Below are positions 4,535 through 41,957 of a stretch of 64,000 nt of DNA, piece by piece. A program made the translations under genes and the position numbers. The stretch is from an uncultured Flavobacteriaceae bacterium (GTDB taxonomy: Bacteria > Bacteroidota > Bacteroidia > Flavobacteriales > Flavobacteriaceae): contig CALSTV010000001.1 in assembly GCA_943789365.1 (NCBI GenBank), positions 2,852,001-2,916,000 on the forward strand. The letters are read 5' to 3'. Numbering within the stretch: the first letter of the stretch is position 1; each line of letters starts with the position of its first letter. The notes under the pieces were generated by a model. That model worked only from the letters and a program-made list of their open reading frames with translations. It had not been told where the DNA came from and searched no databases.

Positions 4535-4600
4535 GTAAAACTAAACGAATTTACCTGCATTTAAGAGGGGGCAAATAGCCAATTTCGTGGTGTTTTTTGC
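4535..4600 (-). promoter_or_regulatory. PUL promoter F: C-rich direct repeat plus -7 box upstream of PL8 lyase
   Basis: On the minus strand a CCCCCT box (4571-4566) is followed after 22 bp by TAGTTTTAC (4543-4535), a -7-like element. About 21 bp upstream of the C box is a weaker half-site, ACACCAC (4593-4587), which matches the half-sites in front of the susCD operon. This is one of seven such promoters in the window. Its distal half is the weakest, so confidence is lower than for the others. Confidence 0.55.
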
Positions 4601-4620
4601 CCGTTATGATAGGAAAGGTA

Positions 4621-4658
4621 AAAAAAAAACCTCGATACCGTTTTAGGATATCGAGGTT
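4621..4658 (-). terminator. Rho-independent terminator after the first T9SS protein
   Basis: Stem cctcgata (4630-4637) pairs with tatcgagg (4649-4656), followed on the minus strand by nine T. It lies just downstream of the stop at 4680, so it should end the 4680-6122 transcript and keep it separate from the PL8 unit. Confidence 0.85.
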
Positions 4659-4679
4659 TAACTAATATAATCGGGGGAA

Positions 4680-6122
4680 TTAATTCACAATTACTTTTTT
4701 AGAAGTCACAGCACCATTGTCTGCTGTTACCTTCAAAAGATAGATTCCTTTTGCAAGCTTGCTTACATCAATAGCAGATCCATCTGTTTTTGCTACCGTT
4801 CTTCCTGTTAGGTCTACCAAGTTGGCAGAAACAATAGCATTCAATCCGTTGTTTTGGATGTTCATGATCGAGTTTGATGGATTAGGGTATACTGAGATGT
4901 TTTCATTTAAAAGATCATCATCAACTGATAAATCGCTGCTTCCAACCGTGAAATTGGCTTCTTGAAACTCAATAAACCCTGTGTTAGACGGCCATTCAGC
5001 AGCTAATACCATTCGGTAGTATCTATAGGCAATTCCATCGGTATCCAGTGTTCTAGACTGTTCTTCGGCATCTGATGCACTGTATTGAAGTGGCGTAAAT
5101 GAACCGCCACCAACATCTGTCCATGTAGTGTCGTCATTACTGGCTTCGACTTTCCAAAGCGATTGATATTCGTCTTTTTGTGCATTTCGAACACTATATC
5201 TTATTTCATTCAATTCAATTGGGCCATAATCGTCTGACACCTTAAATCGAACCCCTTCATTTTGAGGGATGTTAATTCCATTCAAGAAACGGGTCGAATA
5301 TGTTTCAGTAGTAAAAATTCTGTCAAAGTATTTCGGGTTGAAATTGGCATCTGAAATGGAAGCCGTAGGTTCATCAAAAACGCCTGGTTGACCTTGAGCG
5401 CTCACGTTTAAAGTGATAGCACCGTCTGCTACCTGTTCCGGAGTCAATTCAAAGTTTACATCTGAAACATAAAAAGTTCCATTTTTGTTTTCGTCAGTGT
5501 ACGCAGAAGCATCACTTAAATTTCTAAAAGCTACAGTCACAGTACTACTTGTATAGGCAGATAAATCAATTTTACCAAATACAAACACCGTACTTTTTAC
5601 TCCTGAGGTTGCAATTTCACCAACAATGTTGGCAGTTTCATCTGTCCATGTGGCTGTTGACGGTAAGCTGCCATGTACATAATCTGTAGAAACAAGTACA
5701 CTTAAGCTAGAATTACCTCCTTCTGCATAGCGTTGTTGTGTCCAAAATGAAACAGAGGGGGCATTTACAACAGAAAGATCTTGGGTAGTCATTAAAGCCC
5801 ATGCTTCAATTGCATGGTTGGTGTCTACTGGATTTCCACTAACGTTTTTAAAAGAAATGGTTCTTTGGTCTCTAGCAGTTCCTAAAGGAATTCTATTAAC
5901 GGGTCTGGAAACGAAAACTGGATCGGTATCTACGGCATCTGGAATATCTCCAACTCTTTTTCCTACATCACCGGCTGTCTGACCACCGAGATTCACTTTT
6001 TGTACGGTAAATCCTCTCGATTCATTCTCATACCTAAAGTCTTCATAGTAAAATGAGCTTTGCGCAATTGCTCCAATAGATAACAAAAGACAAGCCGATA
6101 TAAATAGTGTAATTTTTTTCAT
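4680..6122 (-). CDS. T9SS-secreted putative glycan-binding protein with discoidin-like domain (paralog 1)
   Basis: 480 residues: Sec signal peptide (1-20), a beta-sandwich module at about 22-228 starting YYEDFRYE and ending FYVSDVNF, a discoidin-like (F5/8 type C) domain at about 265-395 (WKVEASNDDTTWTDVGGG), and a type IX sorting tail from about 408 (VYPNPSNS ... GIYLLKV ... KKVIVN). No catalytic motif is visible. It is the tandem paralog of 6398-7852. The first module also appears at the C-terminus of the PL8 lyase at 8029-11901 and in the interrupted lipoprotein at 40309-41853. The likely role is capture of the polymer at the cell surface. It has its own promoter and terminator. The binding function is inferred from domain type and context. 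Confidence 0.8.
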   Translation of the reverse strand: MKKITLFISACLLLSIGAIAQSSFYYEDFRYENESRGFTVQKVNLGGQTAGDVGKRVGDIPDAVDTDPVFVSRPVNRIPLGTARDQRTISFKNVSGNPVDTNHAIEAWALMTTQDLSVVNAPSVSFWTQQRYAEGGNSSLSVLVSTDYVHGSLPSTATWTDETANIVGEIATSGVKSTVFVFGKIDLSAYTSSTVTVAFRNLSDASAYTDENKNGTFYVSDVNFELTPEQVADGAITLNVSAQGQPGVFDEPTASISDANFNPKYFDRIFTTETYSTRFLNGINIPQNEGVRFKVSDDYGPIELNEIRYSVRNAQKDEYQSLWKVEASNDDTTWTDVGGGSFTPLQYSASDAEEQSRTLDTDGIAYRYYRMVLAAEWPSNTGFIEFQEANFTVGSSDLSVDDDLLNENISVYPNPSNSIMNIQNNGLNAIVSANLVDLTGRTVAKTDGSAIDVSKLAKGIYLLKVTADNGAVTSKKVIVN

Positions 6123-6162
6123 AAGGTTGTTGATTTATATTAAACAGGTTTTTAATTATGAG

Positions 6163-6230
6163 GTAAAATTAGATAAGTGAACTTATTTTTTAGGGGGAGG
6201 GACAAATCGTTCAGGAGGGGGATATTGTTC
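6163..6230 (-). promoter_or_regulatory. PUL promoter A: C-rich direct repeat plus -7 box
   Basis: Minus strand: GAACAATATCCCCCT begins at 6230, and a second unit starting GAACGAT (6212) ends in CCCCCT at 6192. After 20 bp comes TAATTTTAC (6171-6163), close to the -7 consensus. The two GAAC boxes are 18 bp apart and the two C runs 24 bp apart, so spacing is less regular here than at sites B, C, E and G. Confidence 0.65.
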
Positions 6231-6324
6231 GTTGTTCGTTGTTTGTTGTTCGTTTTTGACTTTCGGCTTTTGGCTTTTGGCTTTTGGCTTTCGGTAGGTA
6301 GCTGGTAGCTAATAATAGATAGCC
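6225..6324. repeat. Degenerate short-word repeat tract
   Basis: This noncoding stretch is made of slightly varied short words: four GTTGTTCGTT-like units, then five TTTTGGC/TTTCGGC units, then GGTAGCTGGTAGC-type units. Comparable tracts with other words occur at 23,937-24,125, 25,717-25,745, 27,141-27,256, 48,213-48,300 and 55,082-55,155. No coding potential or clear folding is seen. Confidence 0.75.
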
Positions 6325-6342
6325 AGTTACTTTTAATAAAAT

Positions 6343-6397: not shown

Positions 6398-7852
6398 CTA
6401 TTTCACTAAAACTTTACTGGAAGATATCGTGCCATCTTCTGAAGTGATTTGTACAATATACATTCCTTTGGCAAAATTGCTTACATCAATTGAATTTCCG
6501 TTGGTACTAAGGTATACTGTTCTTCCGGTTAAATCTGAAATTCGAACCTGGTCTATTTGCTTTGAACTGTTTACATGCAGTAGGTTCGAAACGGGATTCG
6601 GATAGACTGAAACGGTGTTTGCAACAACCTGATTTTCGTTAGTCAGTGTTGAGTTTCCTACTTTTACATTGATTTGCTGGAATTCAATAAATCCGGTGTT
6701 GCTTACCAATGGGAAATCGGTTGCTAGTACCATTCTAAAGTATTTATAGGCAACTCCTTGGGTGTCTACTGATTTTACGACTTCTGTGGCTCCAGACGCG
6801 GAATAATGTGGTGGATTGAACGCGCCTCCTCCAATATCTGTCCAGGTGCTATCATCGTTACTGGCTTCAATTTTCCATGAAGAAACAAAACCTTCTTTTT
6901 GTGCATTACGTAAGGAATAGTTGAACTCGGAGATTTCAATGGAACCATAAATGTCTGCTACTTCAAGTCGAATACCTTCGTCTGTTGGAATGATCTGACT
7001 GGCTACAAAACGAGTCGCATATGTTACTGTAGTAAAAATTCTGTCGAAATATTTAACGGTGAAGTTTGATTCATCCGTTTTGTCCAAAGCAGGAGTTGGA
7101 AGTTTAAAAACATTGGTTTGTCCGACTGCACTTTCATTTAAAGTCACCAAACCATTAGATACCGGTGTGACATTTCCTTTAAAAGTAACATCTGAGACGT
7201 AGAAAGTACCATTTCTTGATGAGCCAGTGTACGGAGCGCTTGCTTCATCGGTAGATTCTATTTTAAAGGCTACCGTAACTGTTGAACTTGAGTAGGATGA
7301 GAGGTCTAGTTCGCCATACACAAAGGTTTGTGCATCTAAACCGGAAGTGGCAATTTTACCTGTGATGTTTGCGGTTTCATCTGTCCATGTAGCTGTGTTT
7401 GGTGCGTTTCCTTCCGTATAGTCTGTGGAAACCATGATTTTCATGGTAGAAATTCCTCCATTGGCATAACGTTGTTCTGTCCAAAATGTCACATACGGAG
7501 ATTCTCGAATGGTAAGATCTTGAGTGGTCATTATCCCCCATGATTCCACGGCATAGTTTACGTTCGGACTACCAACGCATTTAAACGCTATGGTTCTAGG
7601 GTCAATTGTTTCTCCATTTGGTATTCTATTGGCAGGCCTTGAAGTAAAAACAGGACTCGAATCCCCTGCATCTGGAATATCGGAAACTCTTTTTCCTAAT
7701 TCTGTCGTACTTTGTCCACCGGTGGCAACGTTTTGTATGGTGAATCCTCGGGATCCATCATCTTGATTGAAGTCTTCATAAAAGAAGATTTCTTGAGAAA
7801 ACATCTGCAGACCTGCAAGAAGAAGTGCTAGTGTAAAAGTAATTTTTTTCAT
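6398..7852 (-). CDS. T9SS-secreted putative glycan-binding protein with discoidin-like domain (paralog 2)
   Basis: 484 residues with the same plan as 4680-6122: signal peptide (1-19), module beginning YYEDFNQDD and ending FYVSDVTF (about 22-232), discoidin-like domain (about 265-398, WKIEASNDDSTWTDIGGG), and a type IX sorting tail (VYPNPVSN ... GMYIVQI ... SSKVLVK). The two proteins align along their full length with the same motif order, so this is a local duplication that kept separate promoters (site B here, site A for the other) and separate terminators. They probably differ in ligand preference or expression level. No enzymatic residues are recognised. Confidence 0.8.
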   Translation of the reverse strand: MKKITFTLALLLAGLQMFSQEIFFYEDFNQDDGSRGFTIQNVATGGQSTTELGKRVSDIPDAGDSSPVFTSRPANRIPNGETIDPRTIAFKCVGSPNVNYAVESWGIMTTQDLTIRESPYVTFWTEQRYANGGISTMKIMVSTDYTEGNAPNTATWTDETANITGKIATSGLDAQTFVYGELDLSSYSSSTVTVAFKIESTDEASAPYTGSSRNGTFYVSDVTFKGNVTPVSNGLVTLNESAVGQTNVFKLPTPALDKTDESNFTVKYFDRIFTTVTYATRFVASQIIPTDEGIRLEVADIYGSIEISEFNYSLRNAQKEGFVSSWKIEASNDDSTWTDIGGGAFNPPHYSASGATEVVKSVDTQGVAYKYFRMVLATDFPLVSNTGFIEFQQINVKVGNSTLTNENQVVANTVSVYPNPVSNLLHVNSSKQIDQVRISDLTGRTVYLSTNGNSIDVSNFAKGMYIVQITSEDGTISSSKVLVK

Positions 7853-7885: not shown

Positions 7886-7953
7886 GTAAAATTAATTAGG
7901 TAATTGGTTTGTTTAGAGGGGGTAGCCTGTCAGATTCATGGGGGATATTGTTC
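7886..7953 (-). promoter_or_regulatory. PUL promoter B: 22-bp C-rich direct repeat plus -7 box
   Basis: Minus strand: GAACAATATCCCCC begins at 7953. A second C run (7922-7918) lies exactly 22 bp further. After CCCCCT there are 22 bp and then TAATTTTAC (7894-7886). It drives the T9SS protein at 6398-7852. Confidence 0.75.
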
Positions 7954-8028: not shown

Positions 8029-11000
8029 TTAGTGCTTTACAATGATTTTTTGTTGGTGTTTAGTGCCGTCTTTAAAAAGTATTTGAACAATATAGATACC
8101 CATGGCAAAAGAAGAAACGTTTATGGGCTTGGTGTTTTTTGATGCATAGATGTTTCGACCTGAGATGTCAAATAAGTTGACTTCCGTAACATTTTTATTA
8201 TCTATGTTAGCAAAATTTATAACTGAATTTGTGGGGTTTGGAAAAATGACAACAGGGGCAGATAATGTTGGTTCTTCCACGTCCAAATTATTTGGCGACG
8301 TAAAAAAATGCACATCAGAAATATAAAAGATTCCATTGCGATTACTAGATGAATACGGTGTGTTGTTACTCATGTATTTAAAAGCCAATGTAAAGTTATC
8401 GTCGTTGTAATTAGAAATATCCAAAGTAGATTTTAAGTAGACTAGATTATCTGCATTGTTGTTTTTAGCAATTTGGTTTAGATTCGGTGTGACATCAGTC
8501 CATGTGGCATTGGTTACATCGTTGGTGTAATCTGTTGATATGAGTACAGACAGCGAAGAAGTCCCGCCATTCGCATACCGAGATTCGGTCCAAAAAGTTA
8601 CATATTTATAAGCGTCATCTTGGTTTACATAAGGATTTGTAGCAGAAAGGTCAATCGTTGTCATTGGAATCCAGACGTCTAAGGCATAATTCGAGTTGTT
8701 TGCAGCACCAGAAATAGATATAGCTCTTTGGTCTCTTGTGCTATTATTTGGGATTCTGTTTGCAGGGCGTGTTTCGTTAAATTCACTATTAGAATCGCCT
8801 GCATCGGGTATGTCGGATATCACCTTTCCTAAATTTGCCAAATCTCTTCCGTCGGGGTTTGATACGATTTGTACCGCATATCCTCTAGTGCCATTATTGT
8901 ATCTAAAATCTTCGTAATACACGGTGGGATAAAATGGATTGTAAGTACCCGAATACAAAACAATGTCTACAGGAAGTCCATCTTTGGCGGTGATTGTAAG
9001 TGTGGTTTCTCCACTACCAGGAACAAGGTCAACACTTCCACCAGTATGTGAGTCTAAGGTCCAATCTCCCTGTAACACCAATGTAATACTTACTTCCTGA
9101 CTGTCTCCGTTGTTTTCTGCAAAATTTAAATTGGGGTTTACCAGTGTTAGGTCTAAAGTGTTTCCGGCAGTGGCTGTCATAGCCAAACAAGGTTGATTGT
9201 TTGATTTAATAGGACCCTTGTCGGCATAATTCCCTGCGGTAAAGAAGGCATAACCATGTTTATTAGTTGTAGATAGAATGTGCGCTGTTTGGTCTTGTTG
9301 TAAAACTTTATAGTGGGCTGTATGCTCGTTAGACATGTCGTCACTAAAGGCAATCATGTCGTTGCTGTTTGTTTTTGGGATGATTACATATTCGTATTCC
9401 GCATTGTTTGGAGCTGTACCATGGTTTATATATGCTGAAGCAAAGTTGCCATAGGTAAAAGTACCATTTCCGTTTTCATTCGGAGAGCTTTGGTATTTAC
9501 GGTCAACGCCAATAGCACTTCCGTTTTTGATATAATAGCCTGTGTTCACGGCATCTAAAATCCAATGATTGGTTCCACTTGTCAAACTCGAGTTATATGG
9601 GAATGCAGTTGTACTTATATTGTTTATTACAATTGGTGTTGAAGTGCTAGTCAATATGTTTTGGAACAAGTTTGTTGCTGTGGTGTTCAAAGTATCGTCG
9701 TTGTTGATGTTCGATCCCAAACAAACGACTTTTCCGTCAAAGCAAAACACAGATTTTTTAAATGTAAAACTGTCGTTATGCGTCGCAGTAATGGCTTTTT
9801 GTTGAAAGTCCATGGCAAACATACCATAGTTTCCTTCCAGTTTGTCCTCTATATACGGATTACTTTTAGTCTCAAACCGTAGGCTGGCAGCAAAATTTGA
9901 ATCTGTGGTTTCATCTTGTCTGCTGTTAACCGCTTCCAAATCATCCCAGTGAAGGTGAATCGTAGTGGCTCCAGGTGTTTTGTTCCAGTCCCAACCAGAA
10001 CGGTCTATAGCAGAGTTTTCATAGCCTCCGGCATACAGCACTTCCACAGCTCCATAACTTTGGTAGCGTCCAAAACGATTGTCAGAGGTATAAATTTCAG
10101 TTCCCCAAAAGTATTTGTTAAATCCTTTCATATCCACAACCCAATCCGATTGTCTATAGGCACCTAAATTTGCATAGTTGATTTGCCAAAAACCGGTTGG
10201 CGGTGTTTCTTCACCATAGCTATTCGTGTCTGAATCGCCTCCTGAAATGTAATTATAAGCTTCTATCAACTGTTCGTCAACGGGACTTGCAAGCCCTAAT
10301 TGTTTTAAACTTTTATTAATTGAAATACTGTTAAGTGGGCTTCTACCTGAGAGTGAGTTTGGAAAATTGTCGTCTGAAGCAATAACTCTAGCGACCAATA
10401 GGGCATTTTTAAAGAGGTCTTTTTTTTCAATGCTAATTCCATACATGCCTCCGGAGATATAGTTTACCGCTTGTGCTAGTGTATTGTAGGCCCCAAAGGT
10501 ATATTGAGGATAATAGGTGTTGTGATGAAAACCCGTGTAATCAATTTTCATGCCTTCTCCTTCTTTTGAATAGGGGGTGAGCCAAGTTTGAACATAGTTT
10601 CTAAAACCTTTTAGGTATTGTACTTTTTCTGTATCCGTGCTTCTGTACAAACAGGCTCCAAGTAGGGTAATACTTCTCGTTAAGGCATCGTCTAAATTGC
10701 TTTCATGTGCAGTAGGGTGCCAAATAATATCATTACAAACATACCATTCCACCATTTTTCTAGCTTCTTCCCATAAACCAGCATCTGTCAGTTCTGTTTG
10801 CATCAAATGAATTGCTTTGGGAATGTTTCGAAATGTATAGCCTATATGATGTGTGGTTTCTAGCAAACTTCCATCGGCATAGCCTTGATCTAACAAGTAG
10901 CGAATGCTGTTTAAGAAATAGGTAAGACTACTAGCCGTTCCCTTGTGTTTGTAGTCTTTTGCAAAGGTGTATATGAATTCTTCTACCGTATCTACGTTTT

Positions 11001-11901
11001 CGGCATCTGAATAATCTTTTCCATAAATGGGAACTCCAGTTACAATACCATTCACATATTGAATTTCTTGAGCATTGTATTTAGAAATGGCTGTATTTAC
11101 CGAAGAATTGCTAGGTGCCCCTCCTAAGATCATAGCATCGTAGGTAGCTTTTACAGCATTGAAATCTGTTAATTCTTCAGAAGTAGGCGTTGTAGGAGAA
11201 GCTGTTTTCGGCAAGGTTTGAAAGTACATCGCGTCTGACCAATGCTTTCCATTGTCTAGGTTTAAAAAATCTAACTGGTAATCCGGAGAACGGTAGGTGT
11301 TCCTCCCCATAGTATAGTCTATAAAGTCGAAATGAAAGGTACCACTTCCGGTTGAAGGAGCTGTGATTTTCATAGTGATGAGGTTGTCGGAATTTTTGTT
11401 TCCATACATTTCGTGCTTATAACTTGCCGAAGCCGCTCTCCATCCTGTAAAATTTAATTTAAAGGGATAGTAGAATTGTTTGGTTCCAGTGTTGTCATAA
11501 AATGCTATTTCTATAGCATCACTGGGCAAGGCTCCAATGTTGTATATCCACATACGGAACATGTTTTCAAAATAGCCTTGAACCTCAGAAACAATTAGTC
11601 CGTTACTTTGCAGGTCAGTAACCGTAAGCACATCACCTGCCGTCCAATCCCATTGCAAGGATTTTTCTTCAAGTTTATAATGTGAAGTTGAAGTGCTAAG
11701 TGTACCAAGTGAAGCGGTCCAGTTAGAAGGTACACTAATATTCTCAAAAGATTGGTCCTGTGCACTCATATGGATACCTATAAATAAATGAAATAGGAAG
11801 ATATATGTACAACGTGATTTTTTTGAGAAATGAGAGAAGTAGTTGATCAATGGTTTGGTTTTTAAAGTTGGAATAATCGTTATCGTAAAATTAAATAACA
11901 A
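8029..11901 (-). CDS. Large PL8 chondroitinase-type lyase fused to a glycan-binding module and T9SS tail
   Basis: 1290 residues. The N-terminal sandwich, toroid and C-terminal sandwich domains follow the plan of the PL8 lyase at 1443-4505. The catalytic set is present: GFHHNTYYPQY gives His460 and Tyr467, SGRSP gives Arg520, and a TEIY motif supplies the glutamate. From about residue 980 there is an extra module (YYEDFRYNNGTRGY to FYISDVHF) homologous to the first domain of the two neighbouring T9SS proteins, then a type IX sorting tail (IFPNPTNS ... QQKIIVKH). The enzyme is therefore probably exported to the cell surface. The first ATG (11901) lies upstream of the predicted -7 box at 11893-11885, so translation more likely starts at TTG 11850, directly before the signal peptide (SKKSRCTYIFLFHLFIGIHM). 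Lyase family is firm; the start is inferred. Confidence 0.92.
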   Translation of the reverse strand: MLFNFTITIIPTLKTKPLINYFSHFSKKSRCTYIFLFHLFIGIHMSAQDQSFENISVPSNWTASLGTLSTSTSHYKLEEKSLQWDWTAGDVLTVTDLQSNGLIVSEVQGYFENMFRMWIYNIGALPSDAIEIAFYDNTGTKQFYYPFKLNFTGWRAASASYKHEMYGNKNSDNLITMKITAPSTGSGTFHFDFIDYTMGRNTYRSPDYQLDFLNLDNGKHWSDAMYFQTLPKTASPTTPTSEELTDFNAVKATYDAMILGGAPSNSSVNTAISKYNAQEIQYVNGIVTGVPIYGKDYSDAENVDTVEEFIYTFAKDYKHKGTASSLTYFLNSIRYLLDQGYADGSLLETTHHIGYTFRNIPKAIHLMQTELTDAGLWEEARKMVEWYVCNDIIWHPTAHESNLDDALTRSITLLGACLYRSTDTEKVQYLKGFRNYVQTWLTPYSKEGEGMKIDYTGFHHNTYYPQYTFGAYNTLAQAVNYISGGMYGISIEKKDLFKNALLVARVIASDDNFPNSLSGRSPLNSISINKSLKQLGLASPVDEQLIEAYNYISGGDSDTNSYGEETPPTGFWQINYANLGAYRQSDWVVDMKGFNKYFWGTEIYTSDNRFGRYQSYGAVEVLYAGGYENSAIDRSGWDWNKTPGATTIHLHWDDLEAVNSRQDETTDSNFAASLRFETKSNPYIEDKLEGNYGMFAMDFQQKAITATHNDSFTFKKSVFCFDGKVVCLGSNINNDDTLNTTATNLFQNILTSTSTPIVINNISTTAFPYNSSLTSGTNHWILDAVNTGYYIKNGSAIGVDRKYQSSPNENGNGTFTYGNFASAYINHGTAPNNAEYEYVIIPKTNSNDMIAFSDDMSNEHTAHYKVLQQDQTAHILSTTNKHGYAFFTAGNYADKGPIKSNNQPCLAMTATAGNTLDLTLVNPNLNFAENNGDSQEVSITLVLQGDWTLDSHTGGSVDLVPGSGETTLTITAKDGLPVDIVLYSGTYNPFYPTVYYEDFRYNNGTRGYAVQIVSNPDGRDLANLGKVISDIPDAGDSNSEFNETRPANRIPNNSTRDQRAISISGAANNSNYALDVWIPMTTIDLSATNPYVNQDDAYKYVTFWTESRYANGGTSSLSVLISTDYTNDVTNATWTDVTPNLNQIAKNNNADNLVYLKSTLDISNYNDDNFTLAFKYMSNNTPYSSSNRNGIFYISDVHFFTSPNNLDVEEPTLSAPVVIFPNPTNSVINFANIDNKNVTEVNLFDISGRNIYASKNTKPINVSSFAMGIYIVQILFKDGTKHQQKIIVKH

Positions 11902-11951
11902 TTAAGTGTTGTTACAGGGGACTGCTGTTCTGAAAAGAGGGGTAAATTCAC
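11885..11951 (-). promoter_or_regulatory. PUL promoter E: 22-bp C-rich direct repeat plus -7 box
   Basis: On the minus strand two CCCC runs (11942-11939 and 11920-11917) are exactly 22 bp apart, the second preceded by GAACAGCAGT. After CCCCT come 22 bp and then TAATTTTAC (11893-11885). The -7 box lies inside the 5' end of the longest reading frame of the PL8 lyase, which argues for a downstream translation start. Confidence 0.72.
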
Positions 11952-12055
11952 CATTTTTAGGGTGTTGTTGTATGAATAAAACGTATTATTGTAGTTAAAG
12001 TGGGAATGAACAAATTTTTTACGAATCCATATATTGTACCCAAAAGTAAAGTAAG

Positions 12056-13603
12056 ATGAAAAAACAAGAAATTAAAAAGAAAGTGAAAACAAGTGCCCTG
12101 GTAGGACTTGTGTTTTTTTCGGTAATTTATATTTTTAGCAGTGCAAAAGATTCCAATTCTGAATTACCTAATATCGTCATTATTTACGCAGATGATATGG
12201 GATATGGTGATTTAAATTGTCAAAACCCAAATTCAAAAATACCTACGCCGTTTTTAGACCAGTTGGCTTCGGAAGGCATGCGTTTTACAGATGCTCATAG
12301 TTCTTCGGGTATTTGTTCTCCAAGTAGGTTTGCATTACTCACAGGAATGTACCATTGGAGAAGAAGACATGGGATTGTCGGTTCTTTTGGAAAACCATTT
12401 TTTAAGGAAAGCGATATCACTTTACCACAAGTTTTAAAGCAGAAAGGTTATGAAACAGCCTGTATTGGTAAATGGCATTTGGGGTGGGATTGGGAATTTA
12501 AAAACAAACCATCGGCACAAGTAAAACAATGGGGTAAAAAGCGTAAGGTATACATGCCTGACGATATCGATTGGAGCAAACCTATAAAAGGAGGGCCTTT
12601 GGATCGTGGATTCGATTATTATTTTGGTGATGGAACTATCAATTTTCCACCCTATGCTTGGGTTGAAAATGAAACAGTACTTACCAAGCCTACAGAACTT
12701 ATGGATATTAATGCCATTGGTTTTGATACGAAAGAAGGTAGTTGGGAGTTTCGACCCGGTCCAAAGGTAAAGGACTGGAACCCTTATGAGGTATTGCCTA
12801 CACTTACCCAAAAAACAATAGATTGGATTGCCGATAGAAATACCGAAAAACCGTTCTTTTTGTACATGGCATTGCCTTCACCACATGCACCAATTATACC
12901 AAACGATGAATTTATAGGTACATCGAATGCAGGTGGTTATGGAGACTATATGGTTCAGACCGATTGGGTAGCTGGGCAAGTTTTAAAGGCGTTAAAGGAA
13001 AAAGGATTGGAAGAGAATACCATCGTTATATTTACAGCAGACAACGGTCCAGAGAATTACGCATTTGAGCGTGCTGAAAAGTTCGACCATTATAGTATGG
13101 GAGATTTTAGAGGTTTGAAACGCGATGTGTGGGAAGGTGGACATCATGTTCCATTTATCATTAAATGGCCCCAACAAATTAAGGCAGGAACGGTTTCAAA
13201 TGAGGTTATTTCTCAAATAGATATTATGGCAACACTTTCTGAAATTACTGGTATTGAATTACCTGAGAATGCCGCGCCTGACAGCTATAATTTGTTACCG
13301 GTTATCAAAGGAGAATCATATAAATCGCCGTTGAGAACTGCGACAATTCACAATACTTATAATGACATTTGGGGGATTCGTGAAGGAGATTGGTTGTATA
13401 TAAATAGCCCATCTGGTGCTCGTAAGTCTCCTCCAAAATCATTTCAAAAATTGAGAAATTATAAGAGTTTCACAACCGAAGGATTGCTTTTCAATATGAA
13501 GGAGGATACTCAACAACGCGTGAATCTGTTTTCAGAAAAACAGAAAAAGGTAAAAGAAATGGATGCCCTGTTGCAATCGTATATTGACTCTGAAAGGTAT
13601 TGA
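12056..13603 (+). CDS. Secreted formylglycine sulfatase (S1 family), CSPSR type
   Basis: 515 residues with an N-terminal membrane or signal segment (about 12-30) followed by [15 protein letters not shown], which supplies the metal-binding Asp46 and Asp47. The sulfatase signature [13 protein letters not shown] places the Cys to be converted to formylglycine at residue 87, followed by IGKWHLG with the usual Lys and His. FTADNGPE near residue 330 gives the second metal-binding Asp-Asn pair. It should remove sulfate esters from the imported or surface-bound glycan and needs a formylglycine-generating enzyme, which is not in this window. It is the first gene of the only plus-strand block inside the left half of the locus. 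Its promoter is not obvious: the 150 bp upstream lack a convincing copy of the C-rich repeat on this strand. Confidence 0.94.
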
Positions 13604-25716: not shown

Positions 25717-25745
25717 TTTCTACTTTCTACTTTCTACTTTCTGTT
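25717..25745. repeat. TTTCTAC heptamer tandem repeat
   Basis: Four near-identical TTTCTAC/TTTCTGT units in tandem run across the 3' end of the GH88 gene (stop at 25734). Change in unit number would alter its last codons or the spacing to the next gene. Confidence 0.7.
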
Positions 25746-26933
25746 TTCTAATTCTTTATACCTAACCAGTGCCTCTAAATAGTAATAGTCGGCGTAGTTT
25801 AAAGGTACGTCAATTTCGTTATTGTGTGGAATACTACCAACACTATGCATAAGAACAAAGTGTTTGTTTTCTCCCAGTTTAGCGGTGTATGCAGGAGAAG
25901 CCAAAGAATTCATGATTTTATCAATTCCTGCTCTGTAGGAAGTCTTTGAGTATCCATCGAGTTCAATCAATGCAGATGCAGTAACTGCTGCTGCCGAAGC
26001 ATCTCTTGGTTCATTAGGAATATTAGGCGCATTATAATCCCAATAAGGAATGCCATCTTCTGGAGTTCCCTCATAATTTAGGATATAGTTTGCAATTTTT
26101 TCTGCCATTGCCAAATAGGCAGGGTCTTTTGTGTATCTGTAACAGAGGGTGTAGCCATAGATTCCCCAAGCCTGACCTCTGGCCCAAGAGCTTTCATGCG
26201 CATACCCTTGAGCTGTATTTCTATTTCTTACGGCACCGGTTTCTGGATCATAATCGATCACATGGTAAGAACTATTGTCGGGGCGAAAGTGATGTTTCAT
26301 TGTCGTATTGGCATGTGCGATGGCAACATTTTTATACTTGTCATCTCCTGTAAGTTTTGACAGTTCAAATAATAATTCTAAATTCATCATATTGTCAATA
26401 ATTACGGGGTATTTCCATCCTCTTGTAGATTGCCATCCTTTGTCTACATCCCAGCTTTTGATACATCCTACATTTGGATTGAAGCGTGTAATCAATGAAT
26501 TTCCGGCGGTAATCATAACTTCTTTAAAAGCCTCATTTCCTGTTAAACGATATCCATTTCCATAAGAACAGTTAAATACAAAACCTAAATCGTGATTGGT
26601 CAATCGGAGTTTTTGATTTTCAAATATCGCTTGAAATTTCTCCGCAGCCATTCTCCATTTTTCGTCTTTTGTCAATTCGTATAAATACCAAGAACTTCCT
26701 GGGTAGAATCCTTCTGTCCAGTCGAAGTTTTTATGTATCCAATGCATTTCACCGTCGGCAGTAAGCGTTCTTGGAATGTTGTTTGCAGCTTCTGCATCTT
26801 TTAATAATAAAGACAATTGCTTTTCAGAAAATTCAATTTGTCTATCCGTCTGGGTTTTAGTTTCGCTCGTTGCCATGCAAGAAAAAAGCAAGATTGCAAT
26901 AGACAGAGTACATAGGAGTTTCATTGTTTTCAT
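25734..26933 (-). CDS. GH88 unsaturated uronyl hydrolase (lipoprotein)
   Basis: 399 residues. The lipoprotein signal ends in LFSC (Cys19). The alpha/alpha barrel carries HDLGFVFNCSYGNGYRL with Asp115 and VIIDNMMNLELLF with Asp180, matching in order and spacing the two catalytic Asp residues (Asp88 and Asp149) of Bacillus unsaturated glucuronyl hydrolase. The enzyme hydrates and releases the 4,5-unsaturated uronate from lyase-made oligosaccharides, giving the 5-keto-4-deoxyuronate substrate of KduI. Members of the family that act on sulfated disaccharides differ in specificity pocket, which I cannot judge here. It leads the operon 26,933-17,356 under promoter D. Confidence 0.93.
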   Translation of the reverse strand: MKTMKLLCTLSIAILLFSCMATSETKTQTDRQIEFSEKQLSLLLKDAEAANNIPRTLTADGEMHWIHKNFDWTEGFYPGSSWYLYELTKDEKWRMAAEKFQAIFENQKLRLTNHDLGFVFNCSYGNGYRLTGNEAFKEVMITAGNSLITRFNPNVGCIKSWDVDKGWQSTRGWKYPVIIDNMMNLELLFELSKLTGDDKYKNVAIAHANTTMKHHFRPDNSSYHVIDYDPETGAVRNRNTAQGYAHESSWARGQAWGIYGYTLCYRYTKDPAYLAMAEKIANYILNYEGTPEDGIPYWDYNAPNIPNEPRDASAAAVTASALIELDGYSKTSYRAGIDKIMNSLASPAYTAKLGENKHFVLMHSVGSIPHNNEIDVPLNYADYYYLEALVRYKELENRK

Positions 26934-26985
26934 AGGTATATATGATATAGTAATGTTGTCAGTTTTTAACCACTGTGGTTAACTG

Positions 26986-27056
26986 AGTGCAAGTTCTCTA
27001 TTATTTCTCTTTTTAAAGGGGGAGTCTGCGGTCTACAGAAGGGGGGATATTGAATA
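26986..27056 (-). promoter_or_regulatory. PUL promoter D: C-rich direct repeat in front of GH88 operon
   Basis: On the minus strand a six-C run preceded by TCAATAT (27046-27041) and a CCCCCT box (27022-27017) lie 23-24 bp apart. The expected -7 position 22 bp further (near 26,994-26,986) reads GAACTTGCAC, a poor match. The operator pair is clear; the promoter element is weak. Confidence 0.6.
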
Positions 27057-27140: not shown

Positions 27141-27256
27141 GTCATCGTCAGCGTCAAAATCAAAAGTCAAAAGACGAAAGAGGCAGCAGGTAGCCGATAG
27201 CAGGTAGCAGGTTTCAAGTCAACGTCTGAGTTTAAGTCTGAGTCATCGTCAGTGTC
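27141..27256. repeat. Degenerate short-word repeat tract
   Basis: Noncoding tract of varied words: GTCATCGTCAGCGTCAAAATC, TCAAAAGTCAAAAG, GCAGGTAGCCGATAGCAGGTAGC and GTCTGAGTTTAAGTCTGAGTC. It runs up to the stop of the uracil-DNA-glycosylase-family gene. The GGTAGC words recur in the tract at 6225-6324 and the AGTC words in the tract at 55,082-55,155. Confidence 0.7.
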
Positions 27257-27827
27257 ACTTTAGAACCTGTGCTATGGTTTCTTTTAAATGCGGAAGAACT
27301 TCTTTTGGAAACCATTTGTTCTTGGCTTGCCATATATTGTTTCTAGGTGAGGGGTGGGGTAGCACAAAATAGTGGGGTAAATAGCTTTTATAATTTTGTA
27401 CGCGTTTTGTGAGTGTTTGTTTATTTGTTGTAGGTAGGTGATAATCTTGAGCATATTTTCCAATAAGTAGTATTAATTTTACTTGTTTCATTTCTTTAAG
27501 TAGCAGCTCGTGCCAAGCTGGAGCACATTCTTTTCTTGGCGGATTGTCTCCAGATTTCCCTCTTCCGGGATAACAAAAGCCCATAGGCATAATGCCGATT
27601 TTTTTTGAATCGTAAAAGTCTGCTTTTGAAATTCCCATCCATGTTCTCAAATTTTCACCACTTTTGTCGTTCCAAGCAATCCCAGTGTTATGAACGGCAA
27701 GTCCAGGAGCTTGTCCAATGATAATTATTTTACTTTCACTAGATAAGGATACAACAGGTCTGGGACCTAAGGGTAGATGGTTTGCGCAAAGGTGGCAGTT
27801 TTTTATATCGTGAAGTAGTTTGTCCAT
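27255..27827 (-). CDS. Uracil-DNA glycosylase family protein
   Basis: 190 residues, soluble. The N-terminus has a Cys pair (CHLC, residues 11-14). IIIIGQAPG (residues 34-42) and the C-terminal HPSPRNN motif are the two active-site blocks of the uracil-DNA glycosylase superfamily, and GFCYPG lies between them. It is expected to act on DNA bases, not glycans. It sits between two PUL transcription units, bounded by a terminator at 27,899-27,932 and a repeat tract, and has none of the PUL operators. It is best read as a resident or passenger gene unrelated to glycan use. The exact subfamily is uncertain. Confidence 0.8.
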   Translation of the reverse strand: MDKLLHDIKNCHLCANHLPLGPRPVVSLSSESKIIIIGQAPGLAVHNTGIAWNDKSGENLRTWMGISKADFYDSKKIGIMPMGFCYPGRGKSGDNPPRKECAPAWHELLLKEMKQVKLILLIGKYAQDYHLPTTNKQTLTKRVQNYKSYLPHYFVLPHPSPRNNIWQAKNKWFPKEVLPHLKETIAQVLK

Positions 27828-27953: not shown

Positions 27954-30947
27954 TTATTTTCTAATGAGTGGTATGGTTTTAATTTCAGTACTACCAATGA
28001 GTCGGATATAATACATACCTGCCGGAACTTGCGAAAAGCTTGGTGAGAATGTAAGTTCTGAATTTCCTTCTGTGTTTTTACTAAGTACCAACCTACCATG
28101 CGTATCGTACATTTCGATTCTAGAGATAATAGGGGCTATTAATACGTGCAGTTCATTGTGAAAAGGATTTGGATATATTTTTGTTGTCACAATGGATTCT
28201 TCCACAACTTCTTCCTTGATTTTAGTAGCTTCTTTACTGCCGCTCTGAGTGGAATATGGGGTCCAGGACAAATCATCGAGGGCTATGGATTTGTTAGTGT
28301 TTGTAGGTGAGGCATTTTTAATTCCTAAAGTAAATGTGCCAGCAATGTTGATGTCTTCTACCGTGTAGGTATATATCTCTGAGCCTGTATGGGTAAAGGT
28401 ATCCACAACGTTTCCATTGACGAGTAGTTCTATGGTACGTTCAACACCGGTGTCCCATAAATCTTTACAAGTCACTGTGAAAGTGCCGATTCCTCCAGGG
28501 ATGTTTCCAGATTGTGCCCCTACTTTTCCAGAGCGCATATAAATATCTTTGGAACCATTTATATAGCCAGAAGTACTTTTGGAATTGAGTGTCCAAACAA
28601 AACCATTGTCTCCAGTATAAGTTTCTGTACTCCAGCCGGTAATGGTAGTGTTTTCAAAAGTTTCAGTGGCGCCAACAGCAATTTCACAACTGGCAGTAAG
28701 ACCGCCATCGGTGGTGCTGGCAGTTATGATGGCGATACCTGTAGAAATTCCCGTAACCAGTCCATTTGAACTTACGGTTACAATGGAGGTATCACTAGAA
28801 CTCCATGAAACCGAAGAGTCTGCTGCATAACTTGGGTATACTGTTTCATTTAACGTTGTGGTGTCACCAATTTGAAGCGACGCATTTGCGGGAATTTCTA
28901 CAGATGCTGGGTGAAATGGAGTGTAACTCGTCCATGTCAAATTGTCGAAAGCAACGGATTTATTGGAACCGGTAGGTGAGGCATTTTTGATAGCAAGGGT
29001 AAAGTCTCCTTCAATATCAATATTGTTTACATCAAAAGAATATATTTCGGTTCCACTATGTGTCATAGATCCTACAACCGAACCATTTATTATTAATTCT
29101 AAATTTCGATCTACACCAGAATCCCATAAGTTCTTACACTTAACAGAAAAAGAGGAAATTCCCCCTGAAATCGTTGCTGAGGTTGCCCCGGTTTTTCCAG
29201 ACTGGACATAGATGTTTTTTGAAGTGTCAATATAGCCTGAAGTACTTTTAGCTACCAAGGTCCAATCGATGTTGTTGTTACCTGTATAGGTTTCAGTAGA
29301 CCAACCGGTAATCGTCGTGTTTTCAAAAGTTTCTGTTCTTAAAGCAGATTCAATCCAAATTGGCAGTGCTCCTAATCTATGCGTCAATTGGGCTTCATAC
29401 AAAGAGGTTTCGTCAACATGAGTACCTGGAGATTCATTTTCTTGGTACTGTTTGTCGGTTCCTGAAATTGATTGCGAAGTGTCTTCTGAGATGGTAAAAC
29501 CGACCAAGCCAGAAACGATAGGAGGAATAATTTTAGCATAGGTATAATTGTTTCTCCAAAACTCAAAATTGGTATCTACATAGCCCTTTCCTTCGAAATT
29601 CCATAAGACTAAATGTCTAAGGTGATTCGGCTGATTGGATACGGAACCTCCATAATTCATGCCCAATCCACCTTTACAAGCATCAATTAAGTTGGCTCTT
29701 GGCTGGTTGGCATGAATTTCTGTTCCGCTGTTGCCATCTGTTGGCATTTCATTTCTCCAAAGTGTATTTCCAATGGAAGGACCGCTTACACCGCAACCGT
29801 GATGTATTCCTGTTGAATTGTCAGTGTTTAAACCAATCAAACAACCTGTAGACGCATTTGCGGAGATAAATGCATGTCCTGGATTTCCATAATAATTGTT
29901 TTGAATTGCTGAAGAATATCCGGTAAGTTTAAGTTGGGCTGCATTGCTCATTTGTGTAAAATAGACATTGCTAATCCAGCCATTTGCGACTTGATTGAAT
30001 TCAATGCCACTCCATCCTGAGTCTTGTTGCCAACCAGAATGATGTACAAAAGAAGTATCCATTCCCCCTTCGTAATTCAGGTCTTGTATGCCTACTTCTT
30101 CAATTACCGGAAAGGTTTCAAGATTCCAGTCATAGCTGCTGTCGATTGTTTTATGAATGGGTTCTACAAAAGTAATTGTATTGCCATTAATAGCTTCCAC
30201 TTTATGAATTTCCCAAGTTTTTACCTCAGCCGCAATGGAAGTATAGGACGCAACAACTGCATATGGAGCAAATTCTGCAGCAATTAAATTGGTGTCGTTG
30301 TCAGAAAGTTTGAGACGCACCCATTGTCCTACACTAATACCTGTTGTGCTAGCCACTTGTACATCATAGGTCTCTCTCGTAGCATTGGCAGTAATATTTG
30401 TAATATGTGTTCTGTTGGTGCTACTGGGTTTGAACTGGATAAGGTATGGACAGGTCCAATAGTTATTTGGGTTGGTAGGATTGGTATAGCTGGTTTGAAT
30501 AAGTGTTGTTCCACCAGCTCCAGAACCACTCCCTTTGAGTACAACATTGCTTTTGCTAATGCGTATGATTTCATCCACGTCGTCTGAAGTTTCGTTGATA
30601 TGAAATTCACCAGGTGGAAAGAATACAATTCCTCCAGATGGGTTGAGTTCTGCTGCGGCAATGGCGGCAAGAATAGCGTCCTTGTCAGAGTTGCCATCAT
30701 CTGCTACAGCACCATAAGCCGTATCGGTAACATTGTAGACCGTTTGGCTAAAGGAAGTAGGAAGCCCAATTTCGCCGTTGTGATATCCGGCATAACTGAA
30801 ATTTGGCAGAATGGGTTCTGTGCCACTTTCCAAAGAAGATACCCAGTTTTTTAACAGTTGACTGGGGTTGCTCTGCGCATAATTGCAGAAGCTGTGCAGC
30901 GTACAAACAATGAGTACAAACACAGGTAGTTTTTTGTAATTTATCAT
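27954..30947 (-). CDS. T9SS-secreted beta-helix protein with duplicated binding modules
   Basis: 997 residues: signal peptide (1-24), beta-helix (about 40-465) with the shared motif His302-His303 ... Asp309-Ser-Gly-Trp312, conserved cap (SLYEAQLTHRLGALPIWI), then a binding-like module (ETFENTTITGW to AFDNLTW), a bacterial Ig-like group 2 domain (SVSWSSSDTSIVTV), a second copy of the module (ETFENTTITGW to ALDDLSW), and a type IX sorting tail (IYPNPFHN). The two module copies are very alike, pointing to recent duplication, and the third copy is in 17356-19905. It has its own promoter (C) and terminator. It is probably the main surface-exposed enzyme or binder of the family. Activity is inferred. 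Confidence 0.82.
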   Translation of the reverse strand: MINYKKLPVFVLIVCTLHSFCNYAQSNPSQLLKNWVSSLESGTEPILPNFSYAGYHNGEIGLPTSFSQTVYNVTDTAYGAVADDGNSDKDAILAAIAAAELNPSGGIVFFPPGEFHINETSDDVDEIIRISKSNVVLKGSGSGAGGTTLIQTSYTNPTNPNNYWTCPYLIQFKPSSTNRTHITNITANATRETYDVQVASTTGISVGQWVRLKLSDNDTNLIAAEFAPYAVVASYTSIAAEVKTWEIHKVEAINGNTITFVEPIHKTIDSSYDWNLETFPVIEEVGIQDLNYEGGMDTSFVHHSGWQQDSGWSGIEFNQVANGWISNVYFTQMSNAAQLKLTGYSSAIQNNYYGNPGHAFISANASTGCLIGLNTDNSTGIHHGCGVSGPSIGNTLWRNEMPTDGNSGTEIHANQPRANLIDACKGGLGMNYGGSVSNQPNHLRHLVLWNFEGKGYVDTNFEFWRNNYTYAKIIPPIVSGLVGFTISEDTSQSISGTDKQYQENESPGTHVDETSLYEAQLTHRLGALPIWIESALRTETFENTTITGWSTETYTGNNNIDWTLVAKSTSGYIDTSKNIYVQSGKTGATSATISGGISSFSVKCKNLWDSGVDRNLELIINGSVVGSMTHSGTEIYSFDVNNIDIEGDFTLAIKNASPTGSNKSVAFDNLTWTSYTPFHPASVEIPANASLQIGDTTTLNETVYPSYAADSSVSWSSSDTSIVTVSSNGLVTGISTGIAIITASTTDGGLTASCEIAVGATETFENTTITGWSTETYTGDNGFVWTLNSKSTSGYINGSKDIYMRSGKVGAQSGNIPGGIGTFTVTCKDLWDTGVERTIELLVNGNVVDTFTHTGSEIYTYTVEDINIAGTFTLGIKNASPTNTNKSIALDDLSWTPYSTQSGSKEATKIKEEVVEESIVTTKIYPNPFHNELHVLIAPIISRIEMYDTHGRLVLSKNTEGNSELTFSPSFSQVPAGMYYIRLIGSTEIKTIPLIRK

Positions 30948-30989: not shown

Positions 30990-31057
30990 CCAAATTTGAT
31001 AAATATAGGAAGTCCCTAATAGGGGGAAAATGTTCTAATAAGAGGGGGAGATTGTGT
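30990..31057 (-). promoter_or_regulatory. PUL promoter C: 22-bp C-rich direct repeat plus -7 box
   Basis: Minus strand: ACACAATCTCCCCCT (from 31057) and GAACATTTTCCCCCT (from 31035) are exact 22-bp-spaced direct repeats. After 22-23 bp comes CAAATTTG (30998-30991), a 7 of 8 match to the -7 consensus. A third G run at 31,075-31,079 may extend the array. The remaining bases to 31,214 show nothing else. Confidence 0.75.
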
Positions 31058-40100: not shown

Positions 40101-40276
40101 AGATACAATCCATCAAAATCTGAAGTGGTTCCTTTGGCTTGTCCTTGTACAATGATAGATACACCAGGCAAAGGATTTCCTTCGGAGTCTGTTATCGTTC
40201 CACTGATGCTGTTTTGTGCAAAAGCTGTGAGCGGTGCTATGATGCAAACCATCACAAATATGAGTATTTTTTTCAT
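37139..40276 (-). CDS. susC: SusC/RagA-family TonB-dependent oligosaccharide transporter
   Basis: 1045 residues: signal peptide (1-20), a carboxypeptidase-regulatory-like beta-sandwich (about 22-100, ISGTITDSEGNPLPGVSI), a plug domain (about 115-225) with the SusC signature block (SFDILKDASATAIYGSRAANG), and a 22-strand barrel ending in an aromatic residue (DITF). There is no N-terminal signalling extension of the anti-sigma type, which fits control by a hybrid two-component system. It imports lyase products with TonB energy. It lies 32 bp after the interrupted lipoprotein gene and 33 bp before SusD. Confidence 0.97.
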   Translation of the reverse strand: MKKILIFVMVCIIAPLTAFAQNSISGTITDSEGNPLPGVSIIVQGQAKGTTSDFDGLYLLTNITSEDVLLFSYVGFETQEVQIEDKESLNVQMAESSVGLEEVVVVGYGTVKKKDLTGAIAKIDAEDLVNTATTNFDQALAGRVSGVQITSVDGTPGESMNIVIRGGNSITGDNSPLYVVDGIPLEDFDPASISTSDIESFDILKDASATAIYGSRAANGVIIITTKEGRSDGKTDVKVSVAHSTQWIPNRLEVLSPYQYVKHQENIAKALDNYVPGQYQGYFEGDWIDPELYRDMEGTSWQDEIFQLASTTRYNASLSGGNQTSRLYFSAEYLDQEGTMLNTGFKKLLNNLKFSHKVNSKTSFNGYIQYSHLNRNGPTISGNKYTSIIRDAIQFRPVEPINDDGLEEGGIDYDVDNQRYLFNPIKNLENTDRQNRSDVIRGSLALTHKFKPNFYLRMSGTYQIDNRNETLFFGQETYQGTRGTDHINGTLTTRRYQTLSTSNTLTYKKKIGKHNMTLLGGMEAQKRDSEYARMKNSEIPTDLFGIAKLDLGLSPSIPVTSYSGNTLLSYFARVNYAYKSKYLLTATYRADGSSKFSEDNRWGYFPSFSAAWKFSDEDFMMDIDAISFAKLRIGWGKTGNNRIGDYDAYSQLNASTSSGYVWGPEQNYVPGAYQSNLGVPDLRWETTAQTNIGLDLGLFNQKLEATIDYYKKETSDLLLNAEMAPHAGFDRVQQNVGKVQNQGLEITLNSTNIQTGNFRWTSSFNISFNKNKTLALNQGQEAIYTDPEWNQSYPEYQYITQVGQPVGMMYGLKFDRIYQLEDFNWDNGLQTYVLKDGIPDNGTLPVAPGSVKFIDQNGDGTINADDRVIIGNPNPDHFGGLSNSFEYGPLDFTFLLQWSSGFDILNTNKAVFEVPGAGRNSGFPALLDAWTPLNSDTNVGTIRYSNVYGAPPKGNQIDNRHVEDGSYIKLKTVSLGYNLSEDFAAQLKIKSMRIHVTGQNLFTWTNYSGYDPDVSVGKFGALTPRLDYSAYPQSTTIMTGIDITF

Positions 40277-40308
40277 TTGGTATATTTTAAATGTTGTAAT
40301 GATTTGGT

Positions 40309-41169
40309 TTATTCTTCTGAGGCTTTGAAGTGTACATCTGAGATATAGTATCTACCAGGTCTACCCGCACTTCCAGACGAAGGTTTTCCTGGACCTTCAT
40401 ATAGAGATACAATTCTGAATTTCACTGCGAAACTTTTAGAACTTTTGTAGGTATTTAGATTCATTTCATTCCGAACCCATTTACCATCGGCGTTTCTAGA
40501 AGTGTCTTTTTTACCATCGGGATCACCGGCTCCTAATTTTTGGTCACCTGGGTAAGGAGTCCCAATGAATGGAGTACTTGTGGTACTATTTATTTGGCAG
40601 GATAACTGGTCGTTAATTTGTGTCCAGGTAGAAGTTGCGTCTTCACCCGTGTAGTTTTCTGAAATGTAAATCTCTAATTCTGTAGGGGTACCACCATCGG
40701 TCATGTATTCAACATATTGGTTTTTTGAATAGAATACCATGGATAAGTTGTAACCTAAGCTGTATTGCGTTAAGTCTTGAGGATTTATGGTTACAAAAGA
40801 TTCGTGCGGTTCCCAATCGTCTGCCGTCATATTCGTCCATATAGACTTATTACCAATCACGCTTTCTGGACGTTCTGAAGCGGCTAGGGGTGCCGGAGCG
40901 GCCTGTAACCAGGTTCTGTAATCTGTAACATCTCCCGCTTTGACTACTGTTTTTTCGTAACCATACAATTTGTTTTCAGCTTGTAAGGTAGGGTAGAAGA
41001 AGTAGTTTGTAAGTTTAGGTAAGTCTACTGGCGCATTTGATGCTACCAATATTAGGAAGCTTTCTCCTTGAAACATGGTCGTTTCTTGAGAGATGTTTGA
41101 AGTTACTAATACTTCTGGATATAAGTAGGTGTCTTCATCGACTGTAAAGCCGTCTTTAAGGGAGATAAT
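40309..41169 (-). pseudogene. C-terminal part of surface lipoprotein separated by an in-frame TGA
   Basis: Reading continues without a frame change from the TGA at 41172-41170 through 31 codons (IISLKDGFTVDEDTYLYPEV...) to the Met at 41076 and on to the stop at 40309, giving about 286 codons after the stop. The region contains a beta-sandwich (about 210 residues, INPQDLTQYSLGYNLSMVF to YYISDVHF) related to the module in the T9SS proteins at 4680 and 6398, of DUF5017/choice-of-anchor type. It would be the glycan-binding part of the lipoprotein. If the Met at 41076 were used, the product would lack a signal peptide and be cytoplasmic. A single base (GGA to TGA) explains the break. Confidence 0.8.
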
Positions 41170-41853
41170 TCAAGTTTCCTTATCGATATTTAGGTTTTCT
41201 TCTTGGTTTTCTGTTCCCAACGCAAATGTTACGTCTGGGTTTCCTGTAATTAAATAAGGTTGTGTAGTGGTGCCGCCAGAACCTACAACGATGTTTTGGG
41301 CAATAGGGGAGTACAATAGATTGGTTACCAGTCCCGGTCCTACACCCAAATGGAATACATCTTCAAAAACCGTTTCTTTTGGAACGTCATTAACAAACGT
41401 AGTTACTTTAACTGTAAAGTAGTAATCGTCAATACCAAATTGATTTTCATCAGCAATACTAATTCTACCACTTTTACTGGTGTTGATACCTATATAGGTT
41501 TTAATAGTATCTCCGTCTACCACATAATAATCTTCGGGTCTTAGGTTTTTTTCCTCTTCTATAGGGTTTTCAATGCTAACATCATTCATATAAGAAGCAT
41601 CCAAGATGGTGCCGTCTGCTTTTCTAGCTGAAACAATTTCGTAATAAGGAGGTAATCCACCTGTATTTATTGCGGGTACTCCAGTTTTTAATGCTGCATT
41701 TTCTCTCGCATTCAGTACTTCGAAATACGATAGGTTCGAAGGCGCTTCAATGTCCTCAATAAGAGGGTCTGTAGTAAACGTGTCTTGTTGACATCCTATA
41801 AGGAGCACAAAACAGCCAATTACTAACAAAATTATGTTTAGGTTGTTTTTCAT
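41170..41853 (-). CDS. N-terminal part of SusE-position surface lipoprotein (truncated by TGA)
   Basis: 227 residues ending at TGA 41172-41170. The lipoprotein signal (LLVIGCFVLLIGC, Cys21) is followed by a first domain with NLSYFEVLNAR and GLPPYYEIVSARKADG, and an Ig/cadherin-like repeat (GRISIADENQFGIDDYYFTVKVTT). The protein breaks inside the next repeat at FALGTENQEENLNIDKET; in such domains this is normally followed by Gly and a strand like IISLKDG, exactly what the downstream frame encodes. It is the first gene of the susCD operon, 224 bp from the regulator gene, in the position of a SusE/F-like glycan-binding lipoprotein. As encoded it keeps the anchor but loses the binding module. Confidence 0.82.
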   Translation of the reverse strand: MKNNLNIILLVIGCFVLLIGCQQDTFTTDPLIEDIEAPSNLSYFEVLNARENAALKTGVPAINTGGLPPYYEIVSARKADGTILDASYMNDVSIENPIEEEKNLRPEDYYVVDGDTIKTYIGINTSKSGRISIADENQFGIDDYYFTVKVTTFVNDVPKETVFEDVFHLGVGPGLVTNLLYSPIAQNIVVGSGGTTTQPYLITGNPDVTFALGTENQEENLNIDKET

Positions 41854-41889
41854 GAGTAGTAGATTTGTTTTTGGTTGATGTTCTGAACT

Positions 41890-41957
41890 GTAAAATTCAA
41901 AAATTGCATTGAAAATAGAGTGGTGTAAATTGTTCTAAGTAGCGGTGTGAATTGCTC
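41890..41957 (-). promoter_or_regulatory. PUL promoter G: 22-bp direct repeat plus -7 box in front of the susCD operon
   Basis: On the minus strand GAGCAATTCACACCGCT (from 41957) and GAACAATTTACACCACT (from 41935) are direct repeats spaced exactly 22 bp. Twenty bp further is GAATTTTAC (41898-41890), aligned with the -7 boxes of the other sites. The C run of the other sites is replaced by CACACC. This is the most regular copy of the motif and lies between the core operon and its likely regulator. Confidence 0.78.

Follow-up and report, generated by a model that had tools for sequence, protein, structure and literature searches.

Seven copies of a C-rich direct repeat lie on the minus strand of a 64,000-nucleotide stretch of DNA from an uncultured Flavobacteriaceae bacterium (assembly GCA_943789365.1, contig CALSTV010000001.1, positions 2,852,001 to 2,916,000; hereafter the window). 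Each copy precedes a gene or operon of a polysaccharide locus. Judged from the sequence, the repeats are very probably the operators of the AraC-type hybrid two-component regulator (HTCS) encoded beside them at 42078-46151. The sites are given below with the spacing of their half-sites (d, in bp) and their score.

41920-41957, minus strand: direct repeat, d=22, score 29.8, before the susCD operon.
31020-31057, minus strand: direct repeat, d=22, score 28.7, before the DUF4955 gene 27954-30947.
27018-27055, minus strand: direct repeat, d=22, score 18.7, before the GH88-family gene 25734-26933 and the genes that follow it.
11914-11952, minus strand: direct repeat, d=23, score 13.4 (the lowest of the seven), before the PL8 gene 8029-11901.
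7916-7953, minus strand: direct repeat, d=22, score 21.4, before the gene 6398-7852.
6192-6230, minus strand: direct repeat of irregular spacing (best d=20), score 22.1, before the gene 4680-6122.
4565-4602, minus strand: direct repeat, d=22, score 20.7, before the PL8 gene 1443-4505.

The scores come from a two-block expectation-maximization model with a spacing free between 20 and 25 and a single matrix applied to both half-sites. It was trained on 21 upstream regions from five loci (G002, G001, G007a, Wenyingzhuangia L038 and G006), with the window excluded. The regions were picked by rule (open reading frames, ORFs, of at least 190 aa with a gap of at least 100 nt), and some of the upstream sequences had already been inspected beforehand. 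Start codons are mechanical calls throughout. The model converged on the half-site GAACAATtTACCCCcC, which occurs twice as a direct repeat. Sixteen of the 21 training regions score at least 15, 14 of these 16 at d=21-22, and the remaining five score 0.5 or less.

Scanning both strands of the window with this externally trained model recovered all seven sites, with scores from 13.4 to 29.8. The initial annotation, made from the letters of the window, had placed the seven sequences correctly. It had described them by the fixed pattern GAACAATnT-CCCCCT. The pairing in this description holds and the fixed wording does not: the learned unit is GAACAATtTACCCCcC, the copy at 41919 reads ACACCGCT/ACACCACT, and the first block at 4563 is CACCAC. 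A spacing of exactly 22, which had been counted at four sites, is found at five (41920, 31020, 27018, 7916 and 4565). It is 23 at 11914. The copy at 6195 is irregular, as had been noted, and fits best at 20. One additional peak of 18.1 was observed on the minus strand at 27350-27387. It lies within the UDG-family gene 27255-27827, about 330 bp upstream of the site of the GH88-family gene, and could be chance or a relic.

The repeat accompanies the regulator in other genomes. Among 397 genomes of the family, 25 (our own included) had an HTCS match at E <=1e-300, at 30 HTCS places. Neighbourhoods were taken for 26 places besides our own; G243, G352 and G274 were left out. From another relative set of 80 loci, L038 (Wenyingzhuangia) was analysed. 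Flavicella marina 2A-7 (L064) encodes a close relative of the HTCS. The held-out set consisted of 20 further HTCS neighbourhoods, 395 kb in all. In 14 of the 20, a sense-strand site of at least 12 lies within a fixed stretch of 420 nt behind the HTCS gene; the antisense strand has none in any of the 20. In the control for this count, 500 column-permuted models averaged 0.34, with a maximum of 6. So the site stands before the susCD and enzyme operons beside the HTCS gene and is conserved with its orthologs. The spacing is also reproduced. Held-out pairs with a summed score of at least 18 number five at d=21, four at d=22 and two at d=23, and no other d between 8 and 60 has more than two. Across the 395 kb there are 8 peaks of at least 18, against a mean of 0.98 (maximum 6) in 60 permuted models and 2 in the reversed model.

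We find it scarcely credible that the repeats arose by chance or reflect the composition of C-rich intergenic DNA. Pairs of CCCC blocks are indeed not rare in this genome (3.73 Mb, three contigs): of the 86 rows that CCCCN{16,20}CCCC gives genome-wide, 15 lie in the window. This pattern is symmetric and its backward control is uninformative. Likewise, the 11914 site, at 13.4, is not beyond chance on its own in a whole-window scan, because 20 Markov-1 simulations gave 2.2 peaks of at least 13 per 64 kb. The same simulations gave 0.05 peaks of at least 18, and the other six sites score from 18.7 to 29.8. The recovery by a model trained elsewhere, the strand bias and the phasing to a -7 box all speak against chance. 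The pattern CCCC-N15-19-CCCC-N15-30-TTTTAC has 4 matches genome-wide, 3 of them in the window, with 0 in the backward control. A motif search beyond the window had been proposed, and the motif is nearly absent from the DNA scanned: 220 kb of the same genome away from HTCS genes (11 stretches) contain no site of at least 18 and one of at least 15. The genes of the window are also sharply divided. Among 39 ORFs with 190 aa or more, seven are preceded within 300 nt by a sense-strand site scoring 13.4 or higher, and the other 32 score 2.2 or less. We rejected the chance explanation on the held-out tests, this gene split and the background scan.

Two regulators encoded side by side could be considered as binders of the repeats.

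42078-46151, minus strand: HTCS, ORF of 1357 aa with the Pfam domains Reg_prop, Y_Y_Y, HisKA, HATPase_c, Response_reg and HTH_18; predicted binder.
46171-47193, minus strand: LacI-family regulator (Pfam), encoded 19 bp upstream of the HTCS gene and in the same direction.

The first protein joins a Reg_prop/Y_Y_Y sensor, a histidine kinase, a receiver and an AraC-type helix-turn-helix in one chain, which is the make-up of an HTCS. The two-part sites spaced 22 bp apart at five of seven places resemble the direct repeats of such regulators, which average about 21 bp. Moreover, the site score follows the likeness of the DNA-binding domain to that of 42078-46151. The correlation (rho) was 0.59 in 30 held-out loci and 0.46 (p 0.03) in 22 close relatives, both values ignoring shared ancestry. 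The window and the five training loci were left out of this sample. One of 37 loci (L120, an HTCS match with an internal stop) gave no domain hit and was dropped. The AraC domain, which the initial annotation had named as the natural binder, is the best-supported candidate: the site travels with the HTCS orthologs, the score tracks domain similarity, and the LacI-family regulator has a palindrome of another kind.

This palindrome makes it highly improbable that the LacI-family protein binds the repeats, even though it is encoded beside the HTCS and the locus. The candidate operators are as follows.

47289-47306, strandless: perfect palindrome AATACAATCGATTGTATT, predicted LacI operator between lacI and kduI.
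905-922, strandless: perfect palindrome AATGCAATCGATTGCATT, predicted second LacI operator, about 120 bp before dctP, two mismatches from AATACAATCGATTGTATT.

The first is the sole exact copy in its own genome, and it is conserved among genomes of the same genus. It has a central CG, lies beside lacI, and is identical in four other genomes (G001, G002, G007a and Wenyingzhuangia L038); it was not found in the G006, G023 and G007b stretches. Allowing two mismatches, the own genome has two relatives of it, AATGCAATCGATTGCATT at 905-922 and a copy at 3,565,863 that lies within coding sequence and is not palindromic. Exact copies of AATACAATCGATTGTATT also precede dctP in G002 and, at the same place in G001, a 347-aa gene to which Pfam gave no type. 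In the window, kduI and dctP have no direct repeat (the upstream score is -4.8 for dctP, which is cut by the window edge). Having been listed as lacking the repeat, these two genes therefore share another operator, probably that of LacI. The LacI-family protein as binder of the repeats was rejected on these grounds.

Several observations weigh against the repeats being operators of this HTCS. Two plus-strand sulfatase genes in the locus, at 12056 and 14899, are without a site (scores -10.1 and -3.1). The copies had been proposed to stand only before units for polymer binding and cleavage; the split is 7 against 32 genes, and not every polymer gene carries one. Six of the 20 held-out relatives score below 12. 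Peaks of at least 15 in the held-out DNA number 18; the permuted models average 5.45, one of the 60 reached 19, and 8 were counted with the reversed model. Where the site is expected, after the HTCS gene, the signal is thus strong, with 14 of 20 relatives having it there; a blind scan of the divergent loci, with this modest excess over permuted models across 395 kb, yields a moderate signal only. Ten of 37 surveyed sites lack a recognised -7 box in register. Among the paralogs of the own genome (eight scorable), the correlation between site and domain is 0.28 (p 0.51), which is not significant. The domain-site correlation ignores shared ancestry; because of this, the HTCS as binder is supported rather than proven. 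Finally, C-rich repeats occur at two other HTCS loci of this genome, and the site need not be private to 42078-46151.

These last repeats were found in 180 kb around nine other HTCS genes, where four peaks of at least 18 fall in three places, two at L124 (genome 3,094.6 and 3,095.6 kb) and one at L125 (2,468.3 kb). They are intergenic direct repeats 20-23 bp apart. This suggests a common operator grammar among the HTCS paralogs of the genome. Together with the non-significant correlation in the own paralogs, it favours the idea that another AraC-type regulator, a paralogous HTCS, or several HTCSs together bind the repeats. We consider this unlikely. The sites adjoin orthologs of 42078-46151 in the five training loci as well as in the held-out relatives, and the scores rise with similarity to its DNA-binding domain. 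Binding by the adjacent HTCS is the reading kept below.

The repeats stand at a regular distance from promoter-like boxes. Five of these boxes in the window are the following.

41890-41899, minus strand: -7 box variant TGAATTTTAC.
11885-11893, minus strand: -7 box TAATTTTAC.
7886-7894, minus strand: -7 box TAATTTTAC.
6163-6171, minus strand: -7 box TAATTTTAC.
4535-4543, minus strand: -7 box TAGTTTTAC.

A strict TAnnTTT[AG] occurs 20-22 nt past the second C block at four of the seven sites (11913, 7916, 6192 and 4563). One-mismatch boxes are present at 41919 (at 20) and 31017 (CAAATTTG at 22), and 27015 has AACTTGCA instead. The earlier count of six boxes in seven stands if the one-mismatch forms are included. 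The box of the PL8 gene 8029-11901 falls within the called ORF, so its start was called too far upstream. In a wider promoter survey, 37 of the 48 regions examined have a site of at least 12. At 20 of these 37 sites the strict box follows the C block by 21-25 nt (15 of them at exactly 23), and strict boxes anywhere between -5 and 60 total 25. Seven other sites have the TTGY form at 23-25 nt.

For Flavobacterium psychrophilum, PMC9723704 gives the sigma-A -7 element as TAnnTTTG at -12 to -5, with an SM5 variant TAnnTTGY at the same place. The window box TAATTTTAC fits TAnnTTT and has a fixed place after the repeat. It differs in that the final G is A in the window copies. By its letters, the box is the ordinary flavobacterial one. 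A regulon-specific box was rejected: TAATTTTAC fits the general sigma-A -7 element, and a similar box, judged by eye, follows the predicted LacI operator. The promoters of the GH88-family genes recall the SM5 variant, with a TTGC form at the -7 place instead of TTTTAC. It was observed in the window at about 26985-26997 and also in the G002, G007a and Wenyingzhuangia loci.

This geometry allows a mechanism to be proposed. The Reg_prop/Y_Y_Y sensor would detect an oligosaccharide of the polymer. The activated HTCS would then bind as two subunits, one per half-site, on the same face of the DNA and two helical turns apart. The arrangement seen most often places the -7 box 23 bp past the end of the C block in the second half-site. 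If that box is at -12 to -5, simple arithmetic puts the half-sites near -71 to -56 and -49 to -34. The proximal half-site would abut the -33 region at a fixed distance, as read from the box positions. There the HTCS might recruit RNA polymerase as a class II activator and switch on the genes for binding, transport and cleavage of the polymer. The placement two turns apart at the -33 region, which had been suggested from the window, agrees with the spacing of 22 at five sites and with this predicted position. At araI1-araI2, AraC of Escherichia coli binds two directly repeated half-sites that are separated by about two turns, and the proximal one borders on the -35 region. The predicted placement here is close to that arrangement. 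The differences are a membrane-spanning hybrid sensor, a Bacteroidota-type promoter and an unrelated sequence.

The LacI-family protein, in turn, would govern the monomer branch (the kduI operon and dctPQM) through its separate palindrome, given the position and conservation of the latter. Since lacI neighbours the HTCS gene on the same strand, the protein probably controls the lacI-HTCS operon too. We tentatively put forward, at somewhat less than even odds, a circuit in two tiers. A monomer-sensing LacI repressor would control monomer uptake and catabolism, and the HTCS operon, through one palindrome. A polymer-sensing HTCS would switch on the polymer genes through repeats that precede the -7 box by 23 bp. 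This C-rich grammar could be shared by several marine flavobacterial HTCS paralogs, with possible cross-talk, and genes may swap regulators in evolution. In G006, the HTCS gene has no lacI beside it; a gene 37 percent identical to lacI is found about 8 kb from it, and kduI has an HTCS-type repeat (25.8).

Downstream of the HTCS gene, Pfam identifies SusC, SusD, a PhoD-like protein and a sulfatase. Further along are DUF4955/pectate-lyase-fold proteins, a GH88-family protein and more sulfatases. The locus also encodes two PL8 lyases and proteins with a tail of the type IX secretion system type. Upstream of the HTCS gene are the LacI regulator, KduI, SDR and DUF4861, and dctP, dctQ and dctM lie at and past the left window edge (DctP by Pfam). 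Such a gene content is consistent with a uronate-containing sulfated polymer, for instance chondroitin sulfate, as the probable substrate. The first gene of the susCD operon (40309-41853, minus strand) is split by an in-frame TGA; it may be a pseudogene, a recent mutation or a sequencing error. In G002, G001, G007a and Wenyingzhuangia, the ortholog is one uninterrupted ORF (491-515 aa).

The initial annotation had held that a whole regulon could be read from the window. This did not stand, since at least one more copy is found about 1 Mb from the locus and the L124 and L125 repeats leave cross-talk possible. A genome search with the pattern GAACAATNTNNCCCCNN gave one match outside the window. 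The distant site, the fourth match of CCCC-N15-19-CCCC-N15-30-TTTTAC, lies near 1,873,650 (L166 3309-3349, minus-strand reading) and has a score of 19.5 with d=22 (20.5 with d=25). It precedes a lone sulfatase gene and has a -7 box. This sulfatase is 71 percent identical to one inside the G002 locus, whose site scores 29.8. Eight loci with homologs were examined out of 19 matches. One has a site (G001, L174, 18.0) and seven score 1.1 or less; the Wenyingzhuangia copy has none (-8.1). Strictly conserved membership of the distant sulfatase in the regulon was not upheld.

Previous work on Bacteroides thetaiotaomicron describes a similar design. Ravcheev et al. 2013 (PMC3878776) predicted direct repeats for 16 of 36 HTCSs, on average 21 bp apart, with dimers two helix turns apart and a likeness of motifs that follows the likeness of domains. 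BT3334 is listed there as HTCS_Hya, for chondroitin sulfate and hyaluronan. PMC11253607 describes electrophoretic mobility shift assays in which response-regulator parts of HTCSs were tested on promoters containing predicted sites. Our case shares with the regulons of PMC3878776 an AraC-type HTCS, a direct repeat spaced by about 21 bp ahead of susCD and enzyme operons, a motif that tracks the DNA-binding domain, and distant genes that may belong. It differs in its host, a marine flavobacterium, in the half-site GAACAATtTACCCCcC and in the seven separate units. No published operator for a marine flavobacterial HTCS was recognised in searches of the open-licence literature. From its sequence features, the control design of this marine flavobacterium would be one that had earlier been predicted for Bacteroides of the gut.

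Bacteroidota encode many HTCS regulators; B. thetaiotaomicron has 36 (PMC3878776). With a motif whose distance from the -7 box is fixed, such regulons, stray genes included, could be read from sequence. The proposed division, with polymer genes under the HTCS and monomer genes under LacI, is directly testable.

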